A stretch of 64,000 nt of DNA from contig OZ020259.1 in NCBI GenBank assembly GCA_963971285.1, positions 3,286,001 to 3,350,000 of the forward strand, written 5' to 3'. The DNA is from Astropecten irregularis (lineage: Eukaryota; Echinodermata; Asteroidea; Paxillosida; Astropectinidae). Below are positions 1 through 51,184 of the stretch, piece after piece. A program made the position numbers and the translations under genes. The stretch's first letter is position 1, and the number at the start of each line of letters is the position of its first letter. The notes beneath the pieces were generated by a model, which searched no databases, was not told where the DNA came from, and saw nothing but the letters and a program-made list of their open reading frames with translations.

Positions 1-3000
1 GTAGAGCTTGGGGAAGGCCCAGTGGTCTTGGCACATCTGGATGATCTTCATCTCCTTCCAGACTTCCTCCTCCTTGACGTACACCGGGTTGCAGGTCTTG
101 ACGGCCACCAGGGGTCTGGCAGGGCTTCGCAGTCGCATCAGGCGTACCTCGCCGAAGGATCCCTTGCCGAGGGTGATCGGCCGACCGCTGGTGGTTGGCT
201 CCTCGAAATCAACCTCCTGATACATCCGGCAGGTCAGCGCCTGCATGACGATGTTGTTGCGGGTGATGGGCACCGTTGCTACCTTGCCTGGTTCTGGGTG
301 CTGTGGCTTGGAGGGGCGGGGAACTTGCCGCAGTCTGTGACCTTGCTGTTGGTCTGTCGCGGCGTTCCCCTGTAACAAAAATATCATAGAAGGTTCGATA
401 TGTATGCTCGCCCAAGGCCCGGAGCTGAGACAAGTGCCGCGAAAGGTTTGCTCCCACAAGGACCGAGCGGAGATCTGTACGCGAATGAGGACTGCTTGGC
501 ATGGAGTACATCTCGCCGTTTACTCCCGACCAACGTTTCTCCAATTTTGTAGATATCTTTCAAAGATTTAGTTGTTCAACAATGCAGATGTAATCTTTTA
601 TCTTTATCTTTTCATCTTTGAGCTTTGGAGAACCGAACATGGTCATAGTTTATCCAGTAGTGGCTTGTGAAGTATTTGACGTTCTGCAATCTGTCACCGT
701 AAAGCCACGCGAATTATGTTGTAGGTCGACCAAATGTTTTAATGTTAGCTTACAGTAAGTTTGAACAAGTTTGTCAGCGTTTCAATATGGCAACTGGCGA
801 TATCTTCTCACTATCAAACAATTCTGGAGGTCTGGATGTTCAAGACAAAAGCTTTTGATAAAATGTTGATGATATTATGTCATTGTCCTTTATAGACATG
901 ATGAAAGGATTCGACGAGGATTGAATGCCATTAATCGAAGTCCATGGTTTTCACTTTTGAACAGCTGCATTGGCAAGTGATATCCTGTATTTAGCGTGAT
1001 TCTGAGTATTCCAGCTAAAAATTCATCTTGTCTTGACATTATACCTTTGTGGCAAGCTGGGTCGTCGGGCTCGCCATTGGTTTTGGAGGAACCGGTAACG
1101 GTCGGAGAGTGTCCTGGGTCGGATTATTCTCGCACTGCCGGGGCCCACGCTGGTCCTTTGGTGGGAAGAAATGTGGCATTTGCTCGGTAGCTGGTTTGAC
1201 TGTCACCACAGCCCCTGGTCTCGGGCAGACATCTTTCTCGGAAGCTGGTGCTTTCTGAGTCTGAGGAAGCCGAAGCGATGATAATCAGGAGAATCTCTTA
1301 AAAGTTCTTAAGGGTACAGAATCTCTTTATTTATTGCATTATTGTGGACTATAGTTGCACCTTGCTCCATAATGAGTATGAGTTACTCTTCTTTACGATA
1401 TCGTATTGGTGACTCGATGGTTGTTGCGATTGTACTTGATCACAGTTCTATTTCATGTTGCTTTAATGGTGAACGACACCCTGCGACTGTTTTGGTCACA
1501 ATTTAAGGTAAAGTCCTATAGGATTAGATGTACCTTTGCAACATGTGTCTGCGGGTTGACCAGCGATCTTGGAGGCATCGGTAACGGTCGCGGAGTGTAC
1601 CGGGCGGTCTTCTCAACCTGCCGGGGCCCACGAGTCTCTTTTCGTGGGGAAGATTTCGGCAGTCGCTCGGTGGCTGGTTTGACCGTCGTGGTCACTCCAG
1701 GTTTCGAGAAGGCATTCTTCTCAGAAGCTGGAGCTTTCGAGGTCTGGAGGAGCGATGACAATCAGGAAACCTTCATTAGCGATTGATCGGTTTAATTCGT
1801 TGCATTGTTTGGAGCTGCATACACACAAGACTTATCTGTAGATAACTTGTATTTCGGTTTGAGGAAACTGACTGCTTCTCTAAGCATTGACCCATAATAG
1901 GGCAATGTAGACCTCGCCTGGAGTAAGTTGAAAGCAACTCTATAGTTGATGTGCATGTCAAGTAAGTCATAACATCTTGCTCCATAGTGTCATCACTAAG
2001 TTATTGTTGTTAATGAAGGGCAAGCCCAAGGTTTCAGCGAGTGTAGCTGATCACAAATTAATTTTGTGCTGGGAAACAGTACATGGTATTGGCAACTGCG
2101 AATGATAGACTGTTTTGTTCTCAACTGCAGCTCAACTCAACTCAGGTACCTTTGCATCAGCCTGGGTCGGCGGGCTGGTCAGTGATCTTGGAGGCACCGG
2201 CAGCGGTCGAGGAGTGTACCGAGTCGACTTGTCACTCTTCCGGGGCTTGCGCTTCTCCTTTCTTTGGGAGGAAGGTGGCATTCGCTCGGTAGCTGGTTTG
2301 ACTGTTATGACTGCTGCTGGTGTCTCGGAAACCGGTTCTTTTGGGGTCTGGGCAAGAGACAATAATCAGGGAATGTTAAAGGGTTCTTTAAATCTTAATT
2401 TGTAGGAATGTTGTGGAATAGTTGCTCTTTGCTCCACAAGAAGTAAGTTACTCTCCTTTTTGACATCGTTTAGTTCAATCAAGGTACTGTTGTGGGAAAA
2501 TACATCCTATTGACTGATCTAGGAGTGATTTTGGTCTAAGTTTGAGGTAAAATCTTGGGATAAGATGTACCTTTGCACCAGCCTGGATAGGCGGGCTGGT
2601 CGGAGGCATCGGCAGCGGTCGTGGAGTGTACCGGGCCGACTTGCTGTCACTATGCCGGCGCTTCCGCTTCTCCTTTGATGGTGCCGAGTGTGCCATTCGC
2701 TCGGTAGCTGGTTTGACTGCTATGATTGCTGCTGGTTTAGAGCAGGCTTCCCTCTCGGCAACCGGCTCCTTCGGAGTCTGGACAAGTGAACAGTAATCAT
2801 AAAATCTTGAAGGTTTCTTTCTTCTAAATTTGCTGGATTGTTGTGGAAAAAGTTGCTCCTTGCTCCATAACATGTAAGTTTATTTAGTACTCTCCTTTTT
2901 ACATTTTTTAAAGCTCAATGAAGGTACTGTAGTTAGAAACGACTGCCCAAGGAGTAATTTGGGTCTCAGTTTCAGGTTAAGTTGATCCTGACATTAAATG

Positions 3001-6000
3001 TACCTTTGCCTCAGCCTGGGTCGGAGGGCTGGTCGGTGATCTTGGAGGCACCGGTGGCGGTCGTGGGGCGTACCGGCCTGGCTTCCTGTCACTCTGCCGG
3101 AGCTTGCGCAGCTTTGTTGGAGAGGAAGGTGGCATTACCTCGGTAGCTGGTTTGACTGTAATGATAGCTCCTGGTCTCTTGCCAACATCCTTCTCCACAA
3201 CTGGTGCTATCATAGTCTGGGGGAGCAATTTATGACAATCAGGAGAGCCTTGAATGTGTGTCGATTTAGCTACCTCCGTTTGTATTTCGGTTTAAGGAAA
3301 TGGGTCCGCACATCGCATTGTTAAGTCAGTGGTTTTAAACTCAACTAGTTGGCCACGGTATAAATTAGTGTCATGAGATACCTTTGCAGCAACCTCCGGC
3401 TTGGACTCGGCCACCGATCTTGGGATGGCCGGGAGAGGTCGGCGGGTGAACTGGGCCGCGTTGTCGCACCGGCGAGGCCCGACCGGCACCTGGTCCTTCG
3501 GTGGCGGGGAAGAATACGGTACTCGCTCGGCAGCCGGCTGAACTCGCATCACGCCGACTTTTGGGCGAACAACCCTTTCAGTTACCTGTCCTGTCTGAGC
3601 CTGGGAAATGATAATAATAACTGCAGTTATATCAAGGACGTATTCTGTAAGAGTATCGTCATGATTGTGTCATCATATGTTGAATACCTTGTTTGGCTGT
3701 GTCATGCTAAAAACCATAGAGGACTAATGACTGATGGAGAACAAGCCTACCACAATCAGTAATACTTCATACTTGAAATCAGTGTCTGCCTGAGTTAGAC
3801 ATGTATCTTACCTGTTCTTTCAAGGCATCTTGTCTCATACGGTCAGCATGTCGAATTTCTTCACTACCTCGAGCGGTCTTCTTGGGTGGTTCGACCAGAC
3901 GCCGCAGCGTCTGCTGGCCGGCAATACGCGGCTTGGGCCCCGTCTCTCTCTCAGCGTCAATCGCGGTGCGAACACGGAGATCTTCTCGTTGTTTGTCCAC
4001 AGCGATGGGCCTGGAAGGCTTGGTCAGCTGAAAACAAAAGAAAGTCCTTCGTTTTGACTGAGTATTTTCATAAAAAATAAACAAATAATAAAGTGCTTGG
4101 AGTTTGGAGGGCCTGACGCGTTTCGATCCTAGCAGGATCTTTATCGAAGGCTAAAAAGAGTAATAAAGAGTAAGGTTTGAAGAACATTACGAAGATAACT
4201 CGGGTATTGTTTCGAGCGTTTGTTGTGATCGTCTTTTAGGGAGGAAAACTTCTCATTAGAATAATTAACAACTCAAGACATGTCAATTTGTCACGTAAAG
4301 ATAGTTTTACCTTCGTGAGACGGGGTTTGTGCTTTGGAACGTCATCCGACCTTAGATCTGTATCCACCGGAGGCAAGGGCAGTGGTCTTGGGAGTCTCTG
4401 GCGGCTCCAGTGTCCAGCCTCAACGGTCAAAGGTTCCTCGGACAACGGAAGAATCTGGTTCTTTTTGGTCTTTCTTCCATGTCGCTTACTCTTGGAGCTT
4501 TTTGAGACAAAACAGAGAAACAGAGGTGCTTGGAAATCCACGAATGAAAGGCGAAAGGGATGCATGTTCAATAAGACTTTAAGATATGCATGGTGGAAGT
4601 GCTAAAAGAAGGTAGGTTTTGCGGCGACACCATGTAATCTCTTCTGCGAGAGTGTGTTGGTATTCCAACGGTTCTGCTCAGCGCAAACCTACCTTCTTTT
4701 GGATGTAAGTTCGAACAAAGGCGTATCAAACTATGAGCTATGTGTGTTATGAAGTGTTAAGGAGCTCCAAAACTTGAGTTTGTTTGGGGTTAGAGACACA
4801 ACGCCTAACCTGAGGTTTTGTCACACCTAGAATACGGTCTGGTATAACCTTACCTCATCTTTGAAGGCTCAGCTCTCTCTGCGATGGAGGTCATCTGTTG
4901 GGATGCCTCGGTCGACAGGTCTGTCATGTCGTCGCAGTTTGGACTCCGGATGCCCTGGGATCTGTCGGTCCGCTCTGGGAGGGGAACCTCGCCCTGGCGA
5001 CGCTTCGATCCTCGGGCAGCAGCAGACGAGTGAACGGTCTTCTTGTCTTCTCGTGGCCGCCTCGGAGTGTCCAAATCCTTCCGGACAAAATTGTTTACTC
5101 GGGAGCATGAGAAATATGCCACGAGAACATCGAAGATCTTTTTCAAAAGCGTGCTTTGTGTAGCATTGGTTTGAGATTGAAATTTGTTGTACTGTATGTT
5201 GTTCTGTCAGGTGGTTGCTCACTTCAGGGAGGCTTCGCCTTGCACCATTTTTTGCTTGTCTTATAATTAAGTAAGGGGGTTGCTCAACTCAGTAAATGAG
5301 AAATGGCTTTATATACCACCATTCCCTTCAATAGCACATTTTATTTCCAACTCTGTAAAGTGACATCACAATTAACGAGTATGTTAAGGTTAAAGTAAGA
5401 AAACATATCAAAGGCAAATGAATGACGACAATTAAAAGACAGTTTATATGTGTTTCCTCAATCCTATGACCTATTTGCCATCAAGAGGAATCCCAATTTT
5501 ATTTTAATCTCCACTGAGCATCTCCTTATGTTAGCTCGACACACCGAAAAATAAATTGAAGGGAAATATGAGGCCGTGTCCGAAACGGGCTTCCAGAGCT
5601 ACGGCTAGGTGTTTCAGTGTACTTCAAATGGAGCGAAGACCTAGACCTAGCTCTAGACAACAGATTCGGACGCAGCCTGAAAATCGCTTTATTCTCACCT
5701 TGCTTGTATGAGGTAATTCCTCGGGGTAGGCCGCCATCTTACGTCCGCATGGACGTTTGGTCGGCTTCCTCTCATCCACAGTTGTACCAGTCGGACGACG
5801 GGTACCACTAGGTCCAGGTGGATGGGGTTCAGGGGGCTTAGGGGCGGACCTGCTGGAAGGCCTGCTGCCTGCTTGGGGGTCCTCAGTGCTCGGGATACAG
5901 CAGAGGAAAAGGCGACGTACCGGTCTCGCGATGACACGGCGGAACCTTCGTTAGTCACAAGGAACATGACAGAAAATGATTCGATCTTACTCTAATTAAA

Positions 6001-36021: not shown

Positions 36022-38864
36022 TCAAACGAAGTCCGGCTTTGGGTAGCCAAAAAGTTCAAAGTCCAATCTATACAGCTCCCAGAGCTTTTCATTGGAGAGT
36101 TTTGTGACCTGGCTGAAGTAGGTGTCGTAGGCCTTTGAGCTGTTGGTTGGGTGGCTGTTGGCTTTGGCCGGGTAGGATACCTGATCCTGCAGTCCTAAGG
36201 ACGTCAACATGTACCTTGCGTCGTCATTGATCGTCTCTAGCCTGCCAAGGTAGTCGTAACTGACTTTACACGGCGAGCACATCTTATACATCTCCTGCCA
36301 GTGGTCGTCGAAGCCGTTCCTCTCAGAGGGGTTGGTGAGGTAGGTCATCCACTCGTGCCAGGTTATGTTCTCACCCGTGCGGAGCTCGCGCTCGGTGGCG
36401 TCGGGCCGGTAGCGCTTCATGATCCGCCTGGCGATGCCCTGAAAGTACGGCTCCTGCCGGTAGACCTTGATGTCAGCGAACTTGTTGCGGTAGGCCGACA
36501 GCACGCGGAGGAAGGGCTGTCGGGTGTACATGAACTTGGTGTAGGTGTCCAGGCGGAGCTTCTGATCCTCCGGGGACAGGCTGCTGAGGCGCGTCATGCC
36601 GTTCTTGAAGTGGGCCTCGTTGGATGAGATGCCGACCGTCTCTTTGCGAAGGCCGCCCAGGACCATCAATACCCTTTTCCAGTTACTGCAACCGACCTGA
36701 GTGATAGGCACCATACCAAGTATAAGATTATTTTGGGTTACATTATTATAAGTTATACCACGGTGTATCCGAGCAGTTTCATTGGTCAAAACCTGGCTGC
36801 CTTCTGTCACACATGCGCCAATGAGCAACCACTGTGCTACTCTCCGTTATCTAGCGATGTTTTTCTGTAATATAACGCACAGTTAACCCAATCGATTAAA
36901 AACAAATTATACCCAAATTGATACCACATTGTCAGTCAAGTTTGACTTTTTGGCAATTTCATCGAGAGTTTGTTATTTTATAAAAAGTAAATCTTTTGCA
37001 CAGAACCTGAACAATTTCATTAGGCCATTCCTAATCAAGTTCTGTACAAGACATTAAGGTCATTTTATTTTTCAGTACAGTGGCAAAAAGGTCTCACTCT
37101 TGGATTAGTTGGTCAGTTTCAATCGCTCTGGAACAAAGTTTGGTTCCCTGTATCTCCGTTTAATTCCAGAATAAACTCACTCCACTCCATCAGAACAGAA
37201 AGTTGCCTTGTCCTCTTCCCATTATTAAGACCCAACTATACGGTTACAATTACCTTCGGGACGAAGCAGTAGAGAATCTTGTGTTTGTCATGAGCGTAGA
37301 TGTGTCGCAGTGTGTCGACGTTGAGGCGTCCTTGAGACAGCTTCGGATGTTGGCTGCAGGCTTCCTTGAGATGGCGGCGCCGTTCAAGTTGGACGACGGC
37401 CTGCTGTTCCATAAAACTATCTGGTGCGAACCCCTGGTTGGGTTTTTCCTGTTAATTATTCAGATAAAGAGGTTTTGGGGAGCATTGTAATCAGTGCCGA
37501 TTGCCAACGAAATACTTAACTAATTGTAAGGGGAAGATAGCATTTAGTAATTGAACTCTGCTATAGCGACTTTGTAGGGTGATGATGTTGCTGCTTACCA
37601 GTAATGGATACTGTAACACACTGGGCTCAACTTACAGAGGGTCTAGGTGGTAGCCAGCCCTGTCTCACGAGCATGTCGCGGTTTGAATCCAGCCTGACCA
37701 AGCCAGGAGTTTTACTCTTGAGCTTTAGGAATACGTTAGCATTAAAACCAAATGGCAAACAAACTATATAGCCAATGATGTCTGTGTCAGCATTTTAATA
37801 TTACTTTCAGCAGCTTTAGAGGTGCAGAAGCCAATTTGCCCCATAAAGGCTTGACGCCCTCTACAATCAATTTATAGGCAATGCAATTATGCCAATAGTA
37901 TCACGAAATGATTTCAACGCCATTCCATCGAATAAAGTGATGCACAATTGGTTGATATGGTAAATAATACAAAACAATGCTATCCCATACACTATAGTTA
38001 TAGGATCAATAAGGGGGGATGTACTTACCAGTTTTCCTACTTCGTCTTCATTCGTTTCTTTCCCTTGCGTCTCATCGTCTGCCGGCCCCCTGGCAACCTG
38101 TATATGCTTATTGTCTATCCACGGTACATCTGCTTGTTTCTTGATGCTCTTTGGGCGGTTCAAATTGATCGGAGCTAAAACAAAAAATGCATTTGTCTAT
38201 TATTCACTTTCAGATTCTTTTAGCTGCAATTATGTTGTTGTACAAGTCGAATCCATGTCATCAACGTTTTAAGTATGCTTTAGCCTACTAAAAATGAAAG
38301 ATCATCAAATTATTCGAAGAGTATACATTTTATCATAATCATTACGAAAATGTAGCGCCGTGAGTAACCGATGTTGTGTGTCTTGTGCTTCTAAACTTGT
38401 ACACTCCAGCCAAAAGAATCTGAAAGATGCATGTAAAACGTAACGTAACAGATTTTATTTATTTACTTATAACTAAAAATGTGATGTGGCACTTGCAAGA
38501 CACCTTATTAGTTCCTGGGCAGGGGCTGCAGCGGCTAAGGTGAACCGATCAAGTTCAAAAACTTCGGAAGATCATGAATATCCATTGCCTTACAGTCATT
38601 CGTAGTCCTTATATGCCGGTCATCTAAAAATACATGTATCTTTCACAAAACATGTTTACAAAACATGTTTCTGAACACGAAGGACGCGCAAAGAAATACC
38701 CGTCAGGCTCGGAATGTGGCATCTAACTTTTTACCTTCAAATTCGAAATTGGTGACGATATAGACACTCAGACAGCTGACCAGGCCGAGAACGAGGACTT
38801 GAAGGCAACGCCAATGCTGCTTGCATCGGCGTGGGATCGCCCTTCTGGGTACGAGGCTCACCAT
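36022..38864 (-). CDS. Golgi carbohydrate sulfotransferase, CHST8-14 (HNK-1/chondroitin) family, copy A
   Basis: Four coding exons on the minus strand: 38864-38735, 38174-38029, 37403-37254 and 36696-36022; 1101 nt, 366 residues. It is a type II membrane protein: a short basic cytosolic tail (PRRAIPRRCKQHW), one membrane span (residues ~20-38, LQVLVLGLVSCLSVYIV), then a luminal stem. The catalytic domain starts at LYCFVPKVGCSNWKR, the 5'-phosphosulfate-binding motif (PK at 141-142 ends exon 3, VGC opens exon 4). The 3'-phosphate-binding motif is RQPFLRVLSAYRNKF (201-215). Family landmarks GENITW, HWQEMYKMCSPC, YDYLGRLET and a C-terminal ELFGYPKP are present. The enzyme transfers sulfate from PAPS to a glycan; which sugar cannot be told. 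The acceptor at 37403 was chosen for phase; others nearby break the frame. Confidence 0.9.
37640..37718 (+). mobile_element. tRNA-like SINE fragment
   Basis: GTCTAGGTGGTAGCC and a B-box-like CGGTTTGAATCC, followed by AGCCTGACC; degenerate. Just upstream of exon 3 of sulfotransferase A. Confidence 0.45.
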
Positions 38865-44619: not shown

Positions 44620-47185
44620 TCAACTAGGGACCACATCGGGTTTGGGATAGCCGAATAACTCATAATCAAGTTTATAAACGTCCCAGAGTTTAGTCAACTG
44701 CAAATCCGTTAACTTCGAGAAGTATTTCTGAAAGGTACCGCTGTCAGAACTGTTTGTTGGTCGACTGCTGGCCGAGGAGAGGTACTGGACCTTACTCGGC
44801 GCTCCGATCATTTGCAGGAGGTATTTGGCATCCGTGGTTACGGTCTCCAGGTTACCGATGATGTCGTAATCGATGGTGCAAGGGGAGCAGATCTTGTGCA
44901 TCTCGGCCCAGTGGTCGCTGAAGTGAATGGTGAAGTCCTTCTCCACCTCGGCTCGCTCTGCTGGGTGCGTCAGGTAATCCACGAACTCAGTCCAGGAGAC
45001 GTTCTCGCCCGTCTGCAGGTCATGCGCCGAGGCGTGCTTCTTAAACTTCTGCACGATCTGCTTCCCAAACCGGTGGAAGAACTTGTTGCCGCGGTAGTAC
45101 TCCAAGTTCTCGAACTTGTTCCGGTAGACGGAGAGGGCTTTCTTGAAGGGCTCCCGGACGACGAAGAACTTGCGGTAGTTCTGAAGCCGGTGGGCCTGTT
45201 CTTCGGCGGTGTAGGAGTGGAGGAACTTCAGGTGGGCTTTCAGGTGGACCTCCTCGGATGTCAGGCCGTCAACTGAGTCCTTCTCCCCGTTCAGGACCAT
45301 CAGGACGCGCTTCCAGTTGCTGCAGCCCACCTTGGGTACGAAGCAGTACATGACCTTGTAGGCGTCTACCACGTAGATGTGGCGCTGGGTGTACGCGGTG
45401 GGCGCTTCTTGGGACTGGACGCCTCGTTGCTCGCAGGCGCCCCTTAATGAGGCCTTCCGCTTGGCCTGCACGGCCGCCTGAGTCTTAGCGAAGTCGAGGT
45501 ATGAGGACTTGCTGGATTCTATCTGTTCAGCTGTCTTCTGCAATCAGATGAAACAATTGGATTTAATGAACTTGGTATCAAACATTGCAATTCGGGCGAT
45601 TCCAAAACCATACCAATCGTGGAGAATAGGCCTACGTTGACAACTTCATTACTTTATCCCCATGTGTGACTCCAGCTACCAAATAAATATTAAAAGTTCA
45701 AGGATGTTGCGTTCTTGGAAAGTAGCTGTATATGAGTGATTTCGTGGCTTCTGACTGGCAAACAAACAAAGATAATGGACATTTTGGGACACTGAACAAC
45801 ATAGGTCACTGGATCAGTTGGTAAAGCGCCGTTCATGTGGCATCCCGGATGTCACAGGTTCGAATCCTGCTCCGGCCTTTCTTTGGTCAAATTTCAGTGA
45901 CTTCAACAGCTAAAAGGTATAAGTGGACATACCTGACTCCTTACGGGTGACTCCTGGTTGAAAGGCTTAATCAACAACCGTTTCTTGTAGGCTTCATCAT
46001 CAGCGAGGTCATTTGCTGTGGTGAAAAACAAGTGGTGGAAAGAGAAACCAGGATGATTATAAACTATAGGCCTACAAAACAGTATACTTGGCTTTTTAGA
46101 TGAAAACAGAACTTCAACGAAAGAAACAAAACTCCGGCTGGGCTATACATTCCCAATTTTACATGGCGAGACGTAGCCGGTGCACTCGCTTATACCAAGT
46201 TCAGGCTTCGGCAAGTACCACTCGCGTGCTTATTATTTTTTTTCAAGCCGTTCGAGCATTATTCGGACACGCGGCTGCCAGTAGGCCTAGGATGCGCCGC
46301 CACTTTAGGCTATAGGATACGCCGTGCTACTGACGTGCCGAACTAAAAAAAATACTTGTACATTTTCAAGTTTGGCACGGCCATATAGCACGGCGTTAAA
46401 TAGCGTCAAGGTTCCCCAAATTGAGTTCGACACTGGCGACAATTAGCTATCCGTATTCGGAACGACAGTGAAACGACCAGTAGTGTAGGTCTTTCACCAA
46501 ACTCATGGTAACTTATCGTAGAACTTATGATGCATTGCAGCCAGGCGCGGTTCTACGGGGGGGCTAGGGGGGGCTGTAGCCCCCCCCCCCCCAAATTTTG
46601 TCTAGCCCCCCCAAAAAATTGCAAGTGAAAAAAAAAATCTTGAAAATACTGGATTTTTTCAGTTATTAAGCGCCAATTACATAAAAAACGCGGTGTGTGG
46701 GCTATGATGTGCATGTTTTCGACCCCTAATAAAACATAGCAGAAGCGACTGTTAGAAGAACCCAAAATATTGGGTCTTCTAGCCCCCCCAAAAAAATAAT
46801 GGCTCTTCTAGCCCCCCCAACATTTTGACTCTAGAACCGCGCCTGATTGCAGCCCCCATACAGTCGAAGGATATGATTGACCCCTGGTCTCGGACCATCA
46901 TGTCTCAGTCTTGGACTTCCCGATCTCGACTTCCGCTCGGGCACGACAATCGTCAGCGTTCACGGTGCAACCGCGCCGCGCCGCGCCGCACCCCTGCCGT
47001 GCTGCACTCATTTCATCATTGATTTAAGTTCGGCATGGCAGCAGTACAGATACAGTATCAGTCTTGGTCTTACCCGCTGTTGTGTCTGTGCAATAGTAGT
47101 AGAACTCAGCTAGGACCAGACACCCTATCAAGGTAACGGCCATTAGAGCGATTCGTTTCATCCTCCAATCCAGTCTCGCCATCAT
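44620..47185 (-). CDS. Golgi carbohydrate sulfotransferase, CHST8-14 family, copy B
   Basis: Three coding exons on the minus strand: 47185-47074, 46015-45933 and 45537-44620; 1113 nt, 370 residues. The protein has a short basic tail (ARLDWRMKR), a membrane span (IALMAVTLIGCLVLAEFYYY) and a luminal stem. YCFVPKVGCSNWKR gives the 5'-phosphosulfate loop (residues 133-142) and REPFKKALSVYRNKF (193-207) the 3'-phosphate site. GENVSW, DHWAEMHKICSPC, YDIIGNLET and ELFGYPKP follow in the order of copy A. Unlike copy A, the whole catalytic domain lies in one exon. The two proteins are clearly paralogous but well diverged. The start exon follows an acceptor (CCACAG), so a 5' UTR exon is needed. The first of two adjacent ATGs was taken as the start. 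Confidence 0.9.
45797..45900 (+). mobile_element. tRNA-derived SINE fragment
   Basis: A box TGGATCAGTTGGTAAAGCGC, B box CAGGTTCGAATCC, then CTGCTCCGGCCTTTCTTTGG. The last part is the opposite-strand counterpart of the 19100/57929 tail, so one SINE family. Sulfotransferase B intron 2. Confidence 0.65.
46542..46845. mobile_element. hAT-like MITE with perfect 8-bp target duplication
   Basis: A 304-bp element with inverted ends CAGGCGCGGTTCTA and its complement, flanked by ATTGCAGC at 46534-46541 and 46846-46853. Inside are several runs of 7-14 C followed by A-rich sequence (AGCCCCCCCAAAAAA). The CAGGCGCGGTTCTA terminus and 8-bp duplication fit the hAT superfamily. It lies in intron 1 of sulfotransferase copy B. 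Confidence 0.85.
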
Positions 47186-50262: not shown

Positions 50263-50677
50263 CCTTCATACAATCAATTAAAAATTTCCCTAATTACTTC
50301 CCTTGTGATTATTCAATGATTACATTCACCTGAGAGGTACCTATGAGTGGCGGGGAGGGAAATGGGGTAACAGTAGATGGGATTGAAGTGGGGGGTACCT
50401 GAAAGGTCGGAATGGGAGCCCGGCCGCTTTTGTTGAAATTTGAAATATACATCTTTAGTGGAGGGTGGTGATGTAAATTGACATATTTTGTTCACATCCT
50501 CAGAAAAAGACAGCCTGCAACGACTTATACTAGAAGGAAAAACAAATGGAAAGAGAGGATACGGAAGATCAAGAACATAGTGGATGATGGAGGACATCAA
50601 GGAATGGGCACATATAGGTTACAGTGACTGCATAAGAAAAGCACAAGACTGAGAAGGATGGAGATCCATGATAGCCA

Positions 50678-50975
50678 ACCTGCTGGAAGCAGAACAGCCA
50701 CCAACCTGCTGGAAGAGGAACAAACAACCTGCTGGCACGCTGGAAAAGAAAAGCCAACCTGCTGGCATGCTGGAAGCAGAACAGCCAATCTGCTGGCATG
50801 CTGGAAGCAGAACAGCCAACCACCTGGAAGCAGAACAGCCAATCTGCTGGCCTGCTGGAAGCAGAACAGCCAACCACCTGGAAGCAGAACGGCCAACCTG
50901 CTAGAATGCTGGAAGCAGAACGGCCAACCTGCTGGAAGCAGAACAGCCAACATGCTGGGAGCAGAGGACACCTGC
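50678..50975 (+). repeat. Minisatellite, CCAACCTGCTGGAAGCAGAACAG units
   Basis: About ten units of 23-36 bp (AGCCAACCTGCTGGAAGCAGAAC, with CATGCTGGAAGC and CACCTGGAAGC variants). The repeat keeps several frames open on both strands, which explains long spurious frames (LEAEQP repeats). Downstream of LDAH. Confidence 0.9.
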
Positions 50976-51184
50976 TGATGATGATGGGATGTAAGCTGAT
51001 GAAGCCAAGGTTCCCCAATTCAGACTGAAATGTTAGTCTGGGCATTTGTACAAGTCAAGCAGAATCAAAGACTTTTTAGTGGATTTTTGTTTCTAAATAC
51101 TGATATTTTGGTTCCAAATTAAAATTCTGCTTTATAGAGGCAAATTCCATAAATTCTTTAAAAGTGGAAAGTGGTCCACGATCA

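Follow-up and report, generated by a model that had tools for sequence, protein, structure and literature searches.

We sought to identify what protein is encoded at the low-coordinate end of a 64,000-nucleotide stretch of the genome of the starfish Astropecten irregularis (contig OZ020259.1, positions 3,286,001 to 3,350,000; hereafter the window), where an initial annotation had described a row of duplicated exons that builds a multivalent tail of SH3 ligands on a protein kinase. The exon array is real, and the observation is confirmed with corrections, while the interpretation given to it is supported in part. Open frames bounded by splice sites, homology among six of the exons, agreeing phases, a conserved proline motif and the catalytic residues of a kinase are all present in the DNA. 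The account we favor, and consider probable, is that of one minus-strand gene whose kinase docks on SH3 adaptors via a multivalent disordered N-terminal arm.

Exons were predicted from open frames and splice-site reading on the minus strand, and all positions given are those of the window (Table 1). When the 11 predicted exons are joined, their phases agree throughout and they yield a frame of 955 residues with no internal stops, the ends of exon 2 (5077-4854) having been picked with the reading frame in view so as to join the next exon in frame. Splice sites are good in 9 of the 11, the first two exons being tentative. The central claim, that six homologous exons of about 70 residues are each symmetric in phase 0, was borne out. 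Modules A to F are 66 to 73 residues long. Unequal as their lengths are, all six are divisible by three, and each exon is bounded by an AG acceptor and a GT donor and both begins and ends in phase 0. Pairwise protein identity among them ranges from 32 to 76% (15 pairs). Module A, at 32-40% identity to the others, is the most diverged, and its score against each of the other five beats 500 of 500 shuffles. An additional exon that had been overlooked (4027-3812) was rejected as a seventh module, since 97 to 386 of 500 shuffles equaled its score against modules A to E; against F only 5 of 500 shuffles were as high, and a weak relation to F is possible.

Table 1. Predicted exons of the kinase gene, in order of translation.
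Feature	Position in window	Strand	Length	Phase in / out	Proline motif	Remarks
Tentative exon 1 (first coding exon)	5737-5699	minus		/ 0		ATG in AAGATGGCGGCC context; MAAYPEELPHTSK; donor GTGAGA; from sequence reading
Tentative exon 2	5077-4854	minus	224 nucleotides	0 / 2		weak acceptor; open frame
Exon with seventh motif	4497-4311	minus	187 nucleotides	2 / 0	RPLPLPP
Non-module phase-0 exon	4027-3812	minus	72 residues			lacks RxxPxxP; no clear homology to modules
Module A	3600-3382	minus	73 residues	0 / 0	RPLPAIP	most diverged
Module B	3216-3004	minus	71 residues	0 / 0	RPPPVPP
Module C	2777-2571	minus	69 residues	0 / 0	RPLPMPP
Module D	2347-2150	minus	66 residues	0 / 0	RPLPVPP
Module E	1743-1534	minus	70 residues	0 / 0	RPLPMPP
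Module F	1260-1045	minus	72 residues	0 / 0	RPLPVPP
Kinase exon, 5' part	369-1	minus		0 /		acceptor TTTGTTACAG; basic linker with prolines, then beginning of kinase domain

The motif RPxPxxP, of the class I SH3-ligand type, was found in all six modules, 10 to 13 residues before the end of the module exon, and again in exon 4497-4311, as had been reported for a seventh site. The general class I ligand sequence [RK]xxPxxP is likewise found in six of six modules and in that exon. When residues were shuffled within modules, RPxPxxP appeared in all six in 0 of 5000 trials, RxxPxxP in 1 of 5000 and [RK]xxPxxP in 16 of 5000. A search of all six frames of the window with RP[LP]Px[PILV]P returned seven matches on the minus strand, every one of them in this gene, and none on the plus strand. 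The longer form RYTPRPLPxPP, which had been attributed to every module, is exact in C, D and E, but B reads RYAPRPPPVPP, A FTRRPLPAIP and F DTLRPLPVPP. Similarly, the count of one RxxPxxP per module holds for the shared form RPxPxxP, but B carries a second, overlapping match (RYAPRPP). A single K-type match to [RK]xxPxxP occurs in the kinase exon, inside the domain. For comparison, passages of one paper list RX(L/A)PXXP and RXXPXXP among the ligands of one human SH3 family, and note an abundance of proline motifs in SOS1 (PMC10814857).

What follows the array is a kinase domain. The window holds only about 60 of its residues, and the adjoining stretch of the contig (L004, G000:C23:3276101-3286100) completes it in the same single exon, which runs 570 bases past window position 1 to a TAG stop. 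The 1031 bases 3' of that stop contain no polyadenylation signal of the form AATAAA or ATTAAA. The domain matches Pfam PF00069 with 97 bits against a curated cut-off of 31.7 (expectation value E 1.6e-27), and the catalytic residues can be read directly: GKGSFGEV, the VAVK lysine, HCDLKPNN and the aspartate of DMG. Pfam matches in the last exon are of kinase type only, and a Pfam scan of the chain 4497-1045 gave no match up to E 1. The claim that the kinase directly follows the array thus stands as far as an in-phase kinase exon beginning at 369, with its catalytic residues, can carry it, but the joining itself is predicted. The word tail is not borne out. The predicted frame ends directly after the domain, which places the kinase at the C-terminus, and the array forms an N-terminal arm.

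We searched the host genome, a 475.7-Mb assembly of 168 contigs in which the window lies on contig C23, for relatives of both parts of the gene. With the kinase as query (250 residues), 38 stretches matched at E up to 0.001, the query locus included and some being pieces of one gene; 20 loci were made from them, and the best relative is 34% identical to the kinase. Of the 38, 16 span most of the query without a break (at least 220 of 250 residues), and one of these (L023) has an internal stop. The best-scoring relative, L007 (G000:C1:25360750-25361457), has its first loop glycine, its lysine, its catalytic-loop asparagine and its DFG glycine changed, and is probably a pseudokinase because these four residues are lost. 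Third-position guanine-plus-cytosine (GC) content is 0.85 in the kinase exon, against 0.52-0.64 in the modules and 0.37-0.72 in 19 related open frames taken from stop to stop. The kinase alignment comprised 15 of the 20 loci, L015, L018, L019, L022 and L023 having been dropped as near-duplicates, short or broken, and a profile was built from 10 sequences, this kinase and nine relatives. Searched as a single sequence against solved structures, the kinase weakly matched STE20 kinases first (STK24, 5.8e-11), with TNIK and MAP4K4 among the weak matches. The ten-member profile placed 7t6f (a tyrosine kinase), GCN2 and LIMK1 first, followed among the best 60 of 839 matches by EGFR, parasite calcium-dependent kinases, RIPK1, LCK and TAK1, and no single kinase family emerged from those 60. 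NCBIfam matches lay far below cut-off. We provisionally call this kinase an orphan family near the TKL and TK groups.

The array itself appears to be confined to this locus. A search with module C as query, in which only the best candidates were scored, found five places, all inside the array; module A was missed, being too diverged, and nothing outside the array across the whole genome scored better than E 0.8, the next two candidates (E 0.8 and 2.4) holding internal stops. An exact degenerate pattern searched genome-wide matched three places, which are modules C, D and E. Nor does the array look like a trait of the kinase family: on neither strand of 16 regions of 10 kb did RP[LP]Px[PILV]P match within an open segment of 35 residues or longer, the regions having been aimed at 16 of the 37 other kinase-matching stretches and including a few more pieces. 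The kinase is most likely a lineage-specific one.

In the reading we favor, the exons would be spliced into one mRNA, and the predicted protein would run from a short N-terminus through the one-motif exon and a 421-residue chain of six modules to the single-exon kinase domain. Modules A to F taken together are 19% proline, basic and poor in hydrophobic residues. On a charge-hydropathy plot they fall on the disordered side (0.392 against a boundary of 0.455), while the kinase domain falls on the other (0.477 against 0.431), and the six-module chain is probably unstructured. Each of the up to seven RPxPxxP sites would bind a class I SH3 domain in an adaptor protein. Being repeated, the sites would raise avidity, so that the kinase or its substrates would be recruited to and clustered on SH3 adaptors. 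If this were confirmed, the locus would provide a compact natural case of a kinase gaining adaptor-binding valency by copying exons, in a system small enough to relate module number to SH3-binding avidity and signaling. It also brings to notice a divergent kinase family, represented by the 38 matching stretches of this one echinoderm genome.

Several observations weigh against this reading. Exons 1 and 2 of the predicted gene are supported by weak signals. Within the kinase, DFG reads DMG and APE reads PYE, and for this reason we regard catalytic activity as likely rather than certain. Reading upstream from the kinase domain, we find the first candidate acceptor in phase 2 in eight of the relatives that show one, but in phase 0 here, and another candidate acceptor, of phase 2, lies 55 bases before the one chosen for the kinase exon. 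The general motif [RK]xxPxxP appears by chance in 28-50% of single-module shuffles. The seven columns of the SH3-type core are only moderately better conserved than other columns: their proportion of nonsynonymous differences (pN) is 0.16, a value reached by 116 of 5000 random column sets, and they rank 6 of 60 windows. Finally, in the VKPATER segment of modules B to F the pooled proportion of synonymous differences (pS) is 0.07, equal to the pN of 0.07 (ratio 1.06), while pS elsewhere is 0.39.

The chance level of [RK]xxPxxP and the scarcity of synonymous change in VKPATER also count in favor of a rival account, that the array is a weakly constrained spacer grown by unequal crossing-over, in which the motif persists through youth and composition bias and not through SH3 binding. 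Comparison of the modules with one another, run as a check on the claim of selection, gave a pooled pN/pS of 0.73 (15 pairs; bootstrap 95% interval 0.60-0.92; of 2000 replicates, 0.2% reached 1 or more). The ratio is thus below 1, as it should be for constrained sequence, but not far below, and in the single pair B-F the whole-module ratio of nonsynonymous to synonymous substitution rates (dN/dS) reaches 1.15. Some of the copies are young as well, because the introns between B and C and between C and D are 81% identical over 210 aligned bases. It had been proposed that VKPATE and the proline motif are the least diverged parts of each module and are under selection. VKPATE does have the lowest pN (0.05) among 61 windows, a value that 0 of 5000 random column sets matched, but in B to F its synonymous sites are equally kept, and the advantage of the core is modest. 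The VKPATE codons of B to F are identical except for one, in E. Since the synonymous sites of VKPATER are near-identical too, its conservation lies partly at the level of DNA, for which conversion, a splicing signal or chance are possible causes.

Three features of the array are harder to reconcile with a mere spacer. Pooled pN/pS fell below 1 in 99.8% of bootstrap replicates. Module A, which has diverged at synonymous sites, still retains VxPAxE and RPLPxxP, and this speaks for conservation at the protein level. Exon 4497-4311, which bears no sign of being a module, has an RPLPLPP of its own. Twelve columns around the core have a pN of 0.19 (155 of 5000 sets as low; rank 2 of 55), and the R, P, P and P of RPxPxxP account for 4 of the 11 invariant columns among 60 ungapped ones. 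The chance of all four being invariant is 0.0007 for columns named beforehand, but these were named after the motif had been seen. Constraint on the modules thus appears weak overall, stronger on VKPATE and modestly stronger on the SH3-type core, and we consider the spacer account rather unlikely, though it is the best of the alternatives.

The structure of the introns bears on how the array arose and on how it may be spliced. Besides the match between introns B-C and C-D, intron E-F matches C-D (81% over 77 bases) and B-C (43 bases), and introns A-B and D-E are linked by a 21-base match; most remaining intron pairs are not clearly above shuffles. Adjacent homologous exons thus lie beside introns some of which are homologous, as in tandem exon duplication, and because of this intron homology the unit of duplication was the exon plus its intron, at least for the younger copies. 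The closest pair of modules is C-D (76%), B is nearest to D (68%) and A is set apart, so that the youngest copies seem to sit inside the array, as expected from unequal crossing-over. Tandem duplication of this kind is often tied to mutually exclusive choice, according to excerpts of PMC9013439, and modules B to F have similar junctions (CAG/AC..., CAAAG/gta). If the six exons were mutually exclusive or mostly skipped, each protein would contain one or a few modules, and the array would be a menu of linkers with no multivalent arm. However, every module has a usable acceptor and donor, and all six lengths are multiples of three, therefore joint inclusion keeps the frame. We regard this second alternative as unlikely.

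A third alternative, quite improbable, is that there are two genes, an upstream one that holds the array and another, of a single exon, that encodes the kinase from a methionine in the supposed intron or exon. In its favor, the kinase frame remains open for 50 codons ahead of the acceptor, a methionine lies immediately before that acceptor, many relatives carry the whole domain in one open stretch, and the third-position GC of the kinase exon differs from that of the modules. Against it, the kinase exon opens with a pyrimidine-rich acceptor whose phase matches, the donor at the end of exon F calls for a partner, the basic, proline-bearing composition persists in the linker that precedes the kinase, and in several relatives, too, an acceptor probably lies upstream of the domain. 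These alternatives overlap with one another and with the reading of a kinase carrying a docking arm, and our confidences in them are not meant to add up to certainty.

If that arm exists, its valency might be adjustable. The frame is kept on skipping any of seven exons (A to F and also 4027-3812). The proposal that exons can be skipped freely therefore extends to one exon more than had been thought, but it fails for exon 4497-4311, which at 187 nucleotides and with a phase-2 start breaks the frame when skipped. We offer only as a speculation, and consider unlikely, that the layout works as a valency dial of a lineage-specific echinoderm kinase. Seven phase-0 exons, of which six are docking modules, could be left out, and one further site lies in an exon that cannot be skipped; splicing, or differences in exon number between alleles, would then give the protein anywhere between one and seven docking sites. 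VKPATE would act as another docking motif in each module.

Elsewhere in the window, two related long open frames on the minus strand (36022-36846 and 44620-45543) both contain VGCSNWKRVLMVL and end like LDYELFGYPKPD; we take them to resemble carbohydrate sulfotransferases. At 50569-51054 the open frames of both strands are filled with a short repeat (WLFCFQ / CWKQNSQ), and for this reason the region is probably a minisatellite rather than a gene. In the remainder of the assembly, COX1 on contig C168 reads FSTNHKDIGT under the echinoderm mitochondrial code (AAA Asn, ATA Ile); tRNAs for Ala, Leu, Asn and Gln stand directly before COX1, an arrangement typical of starfish as opposed to sea urchins, and about 370 bases, which would accommodate nad4L, separate cox1 and cox2. 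The code marks the host as an echinoderm and speaks against an origin in amphioxus, while the gene order makes a starfish probable. Members of the GFP family, looked for as a species marker, were found neither here nor in the controls, and their absence carries no weight. L044 (G000:C25:9951047-9952018), in a large contig, is a mitochondrial cox1-cox2 copy, mostly open under the mitochondrial code and in part N, and is probably a nuclear copy. L042 (G000:C131:32162-33484) is a row of intron-free cytochrome oxidase genes of bacterial appearance, and contig C131 is probably a contaminant or symbiont.

We compared the predicted gene with known systems. No described kinase of this layout was found by title or abstract opening among the open-licence matches listed, which is weak evidence of absence. 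PMC10855541, with reference to Bradham et al. 2006, puts the sea urchin kinome at 353 kinases, with only 4 of 186 human subfamilies missing. Tandem duplication of exons is found in about 10% of animal genes and is often linked to mutually exclusive choice (excerpts of PMC9013439). In contrast to the cases covered by those excerpts, which are mostly mutually exclusive, this locus has six copies carrying a linear motif beside a kinase exon.

Among kinases, the nearest parallel is the MAP4K group (HPK1/MAP4K1, GCK, GLK, HGK, KHS, MINK). According to passages of PMC6912701, these begin with a kinase, continue with several proline-rich regions and close with a citron-homology domain. A serine/threonine kinase domain and proline-rich regions share one chain there, as far as those passages go, and a kinase domain and a proline-rich arm would do so in the protein predicted here. 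However, the MAP4K kinase is N-terminal, whereas the kinase predicted here is C-terminal and the frame ends after it, so that it does not have the MAP4K layout. HPK1 binds SH3 adaptors such as Grb2 and Crk. We know of no duplicated exon array in MAP4K kinases.

The parallel closest in principle is the PEVK region of titin, a protein that itself contains a kinase domain. No immunoglobulin or fibronectin III domains of the titin type were found here by Pfam in the chain 4497-1045 or in the last exon. Parts of two papers describe titin PEVK as encoded by many short, repetitive, alternatively spliced exons, gained and lost by duplication, and as built of disordered, positively charged, proline-rich PPAK modules that bind the nebulin SH3 domain (PMC8553726, PMC6469411). 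Repeated exons, basic proline-rich modules and SH3-type ligands, predicted here from the DNA, are common to both. They differ in that the PPAK modules, as given in those parts, have 26-28 residues, against 66-73 here, and in that titin is a giant muscle spring. As a principle, an SH3-binding region encoded by duplicated exons is already known from titin PEVK, and the layout described here is a variation on the titin PEVK exon array and on the MAP4K kinases.

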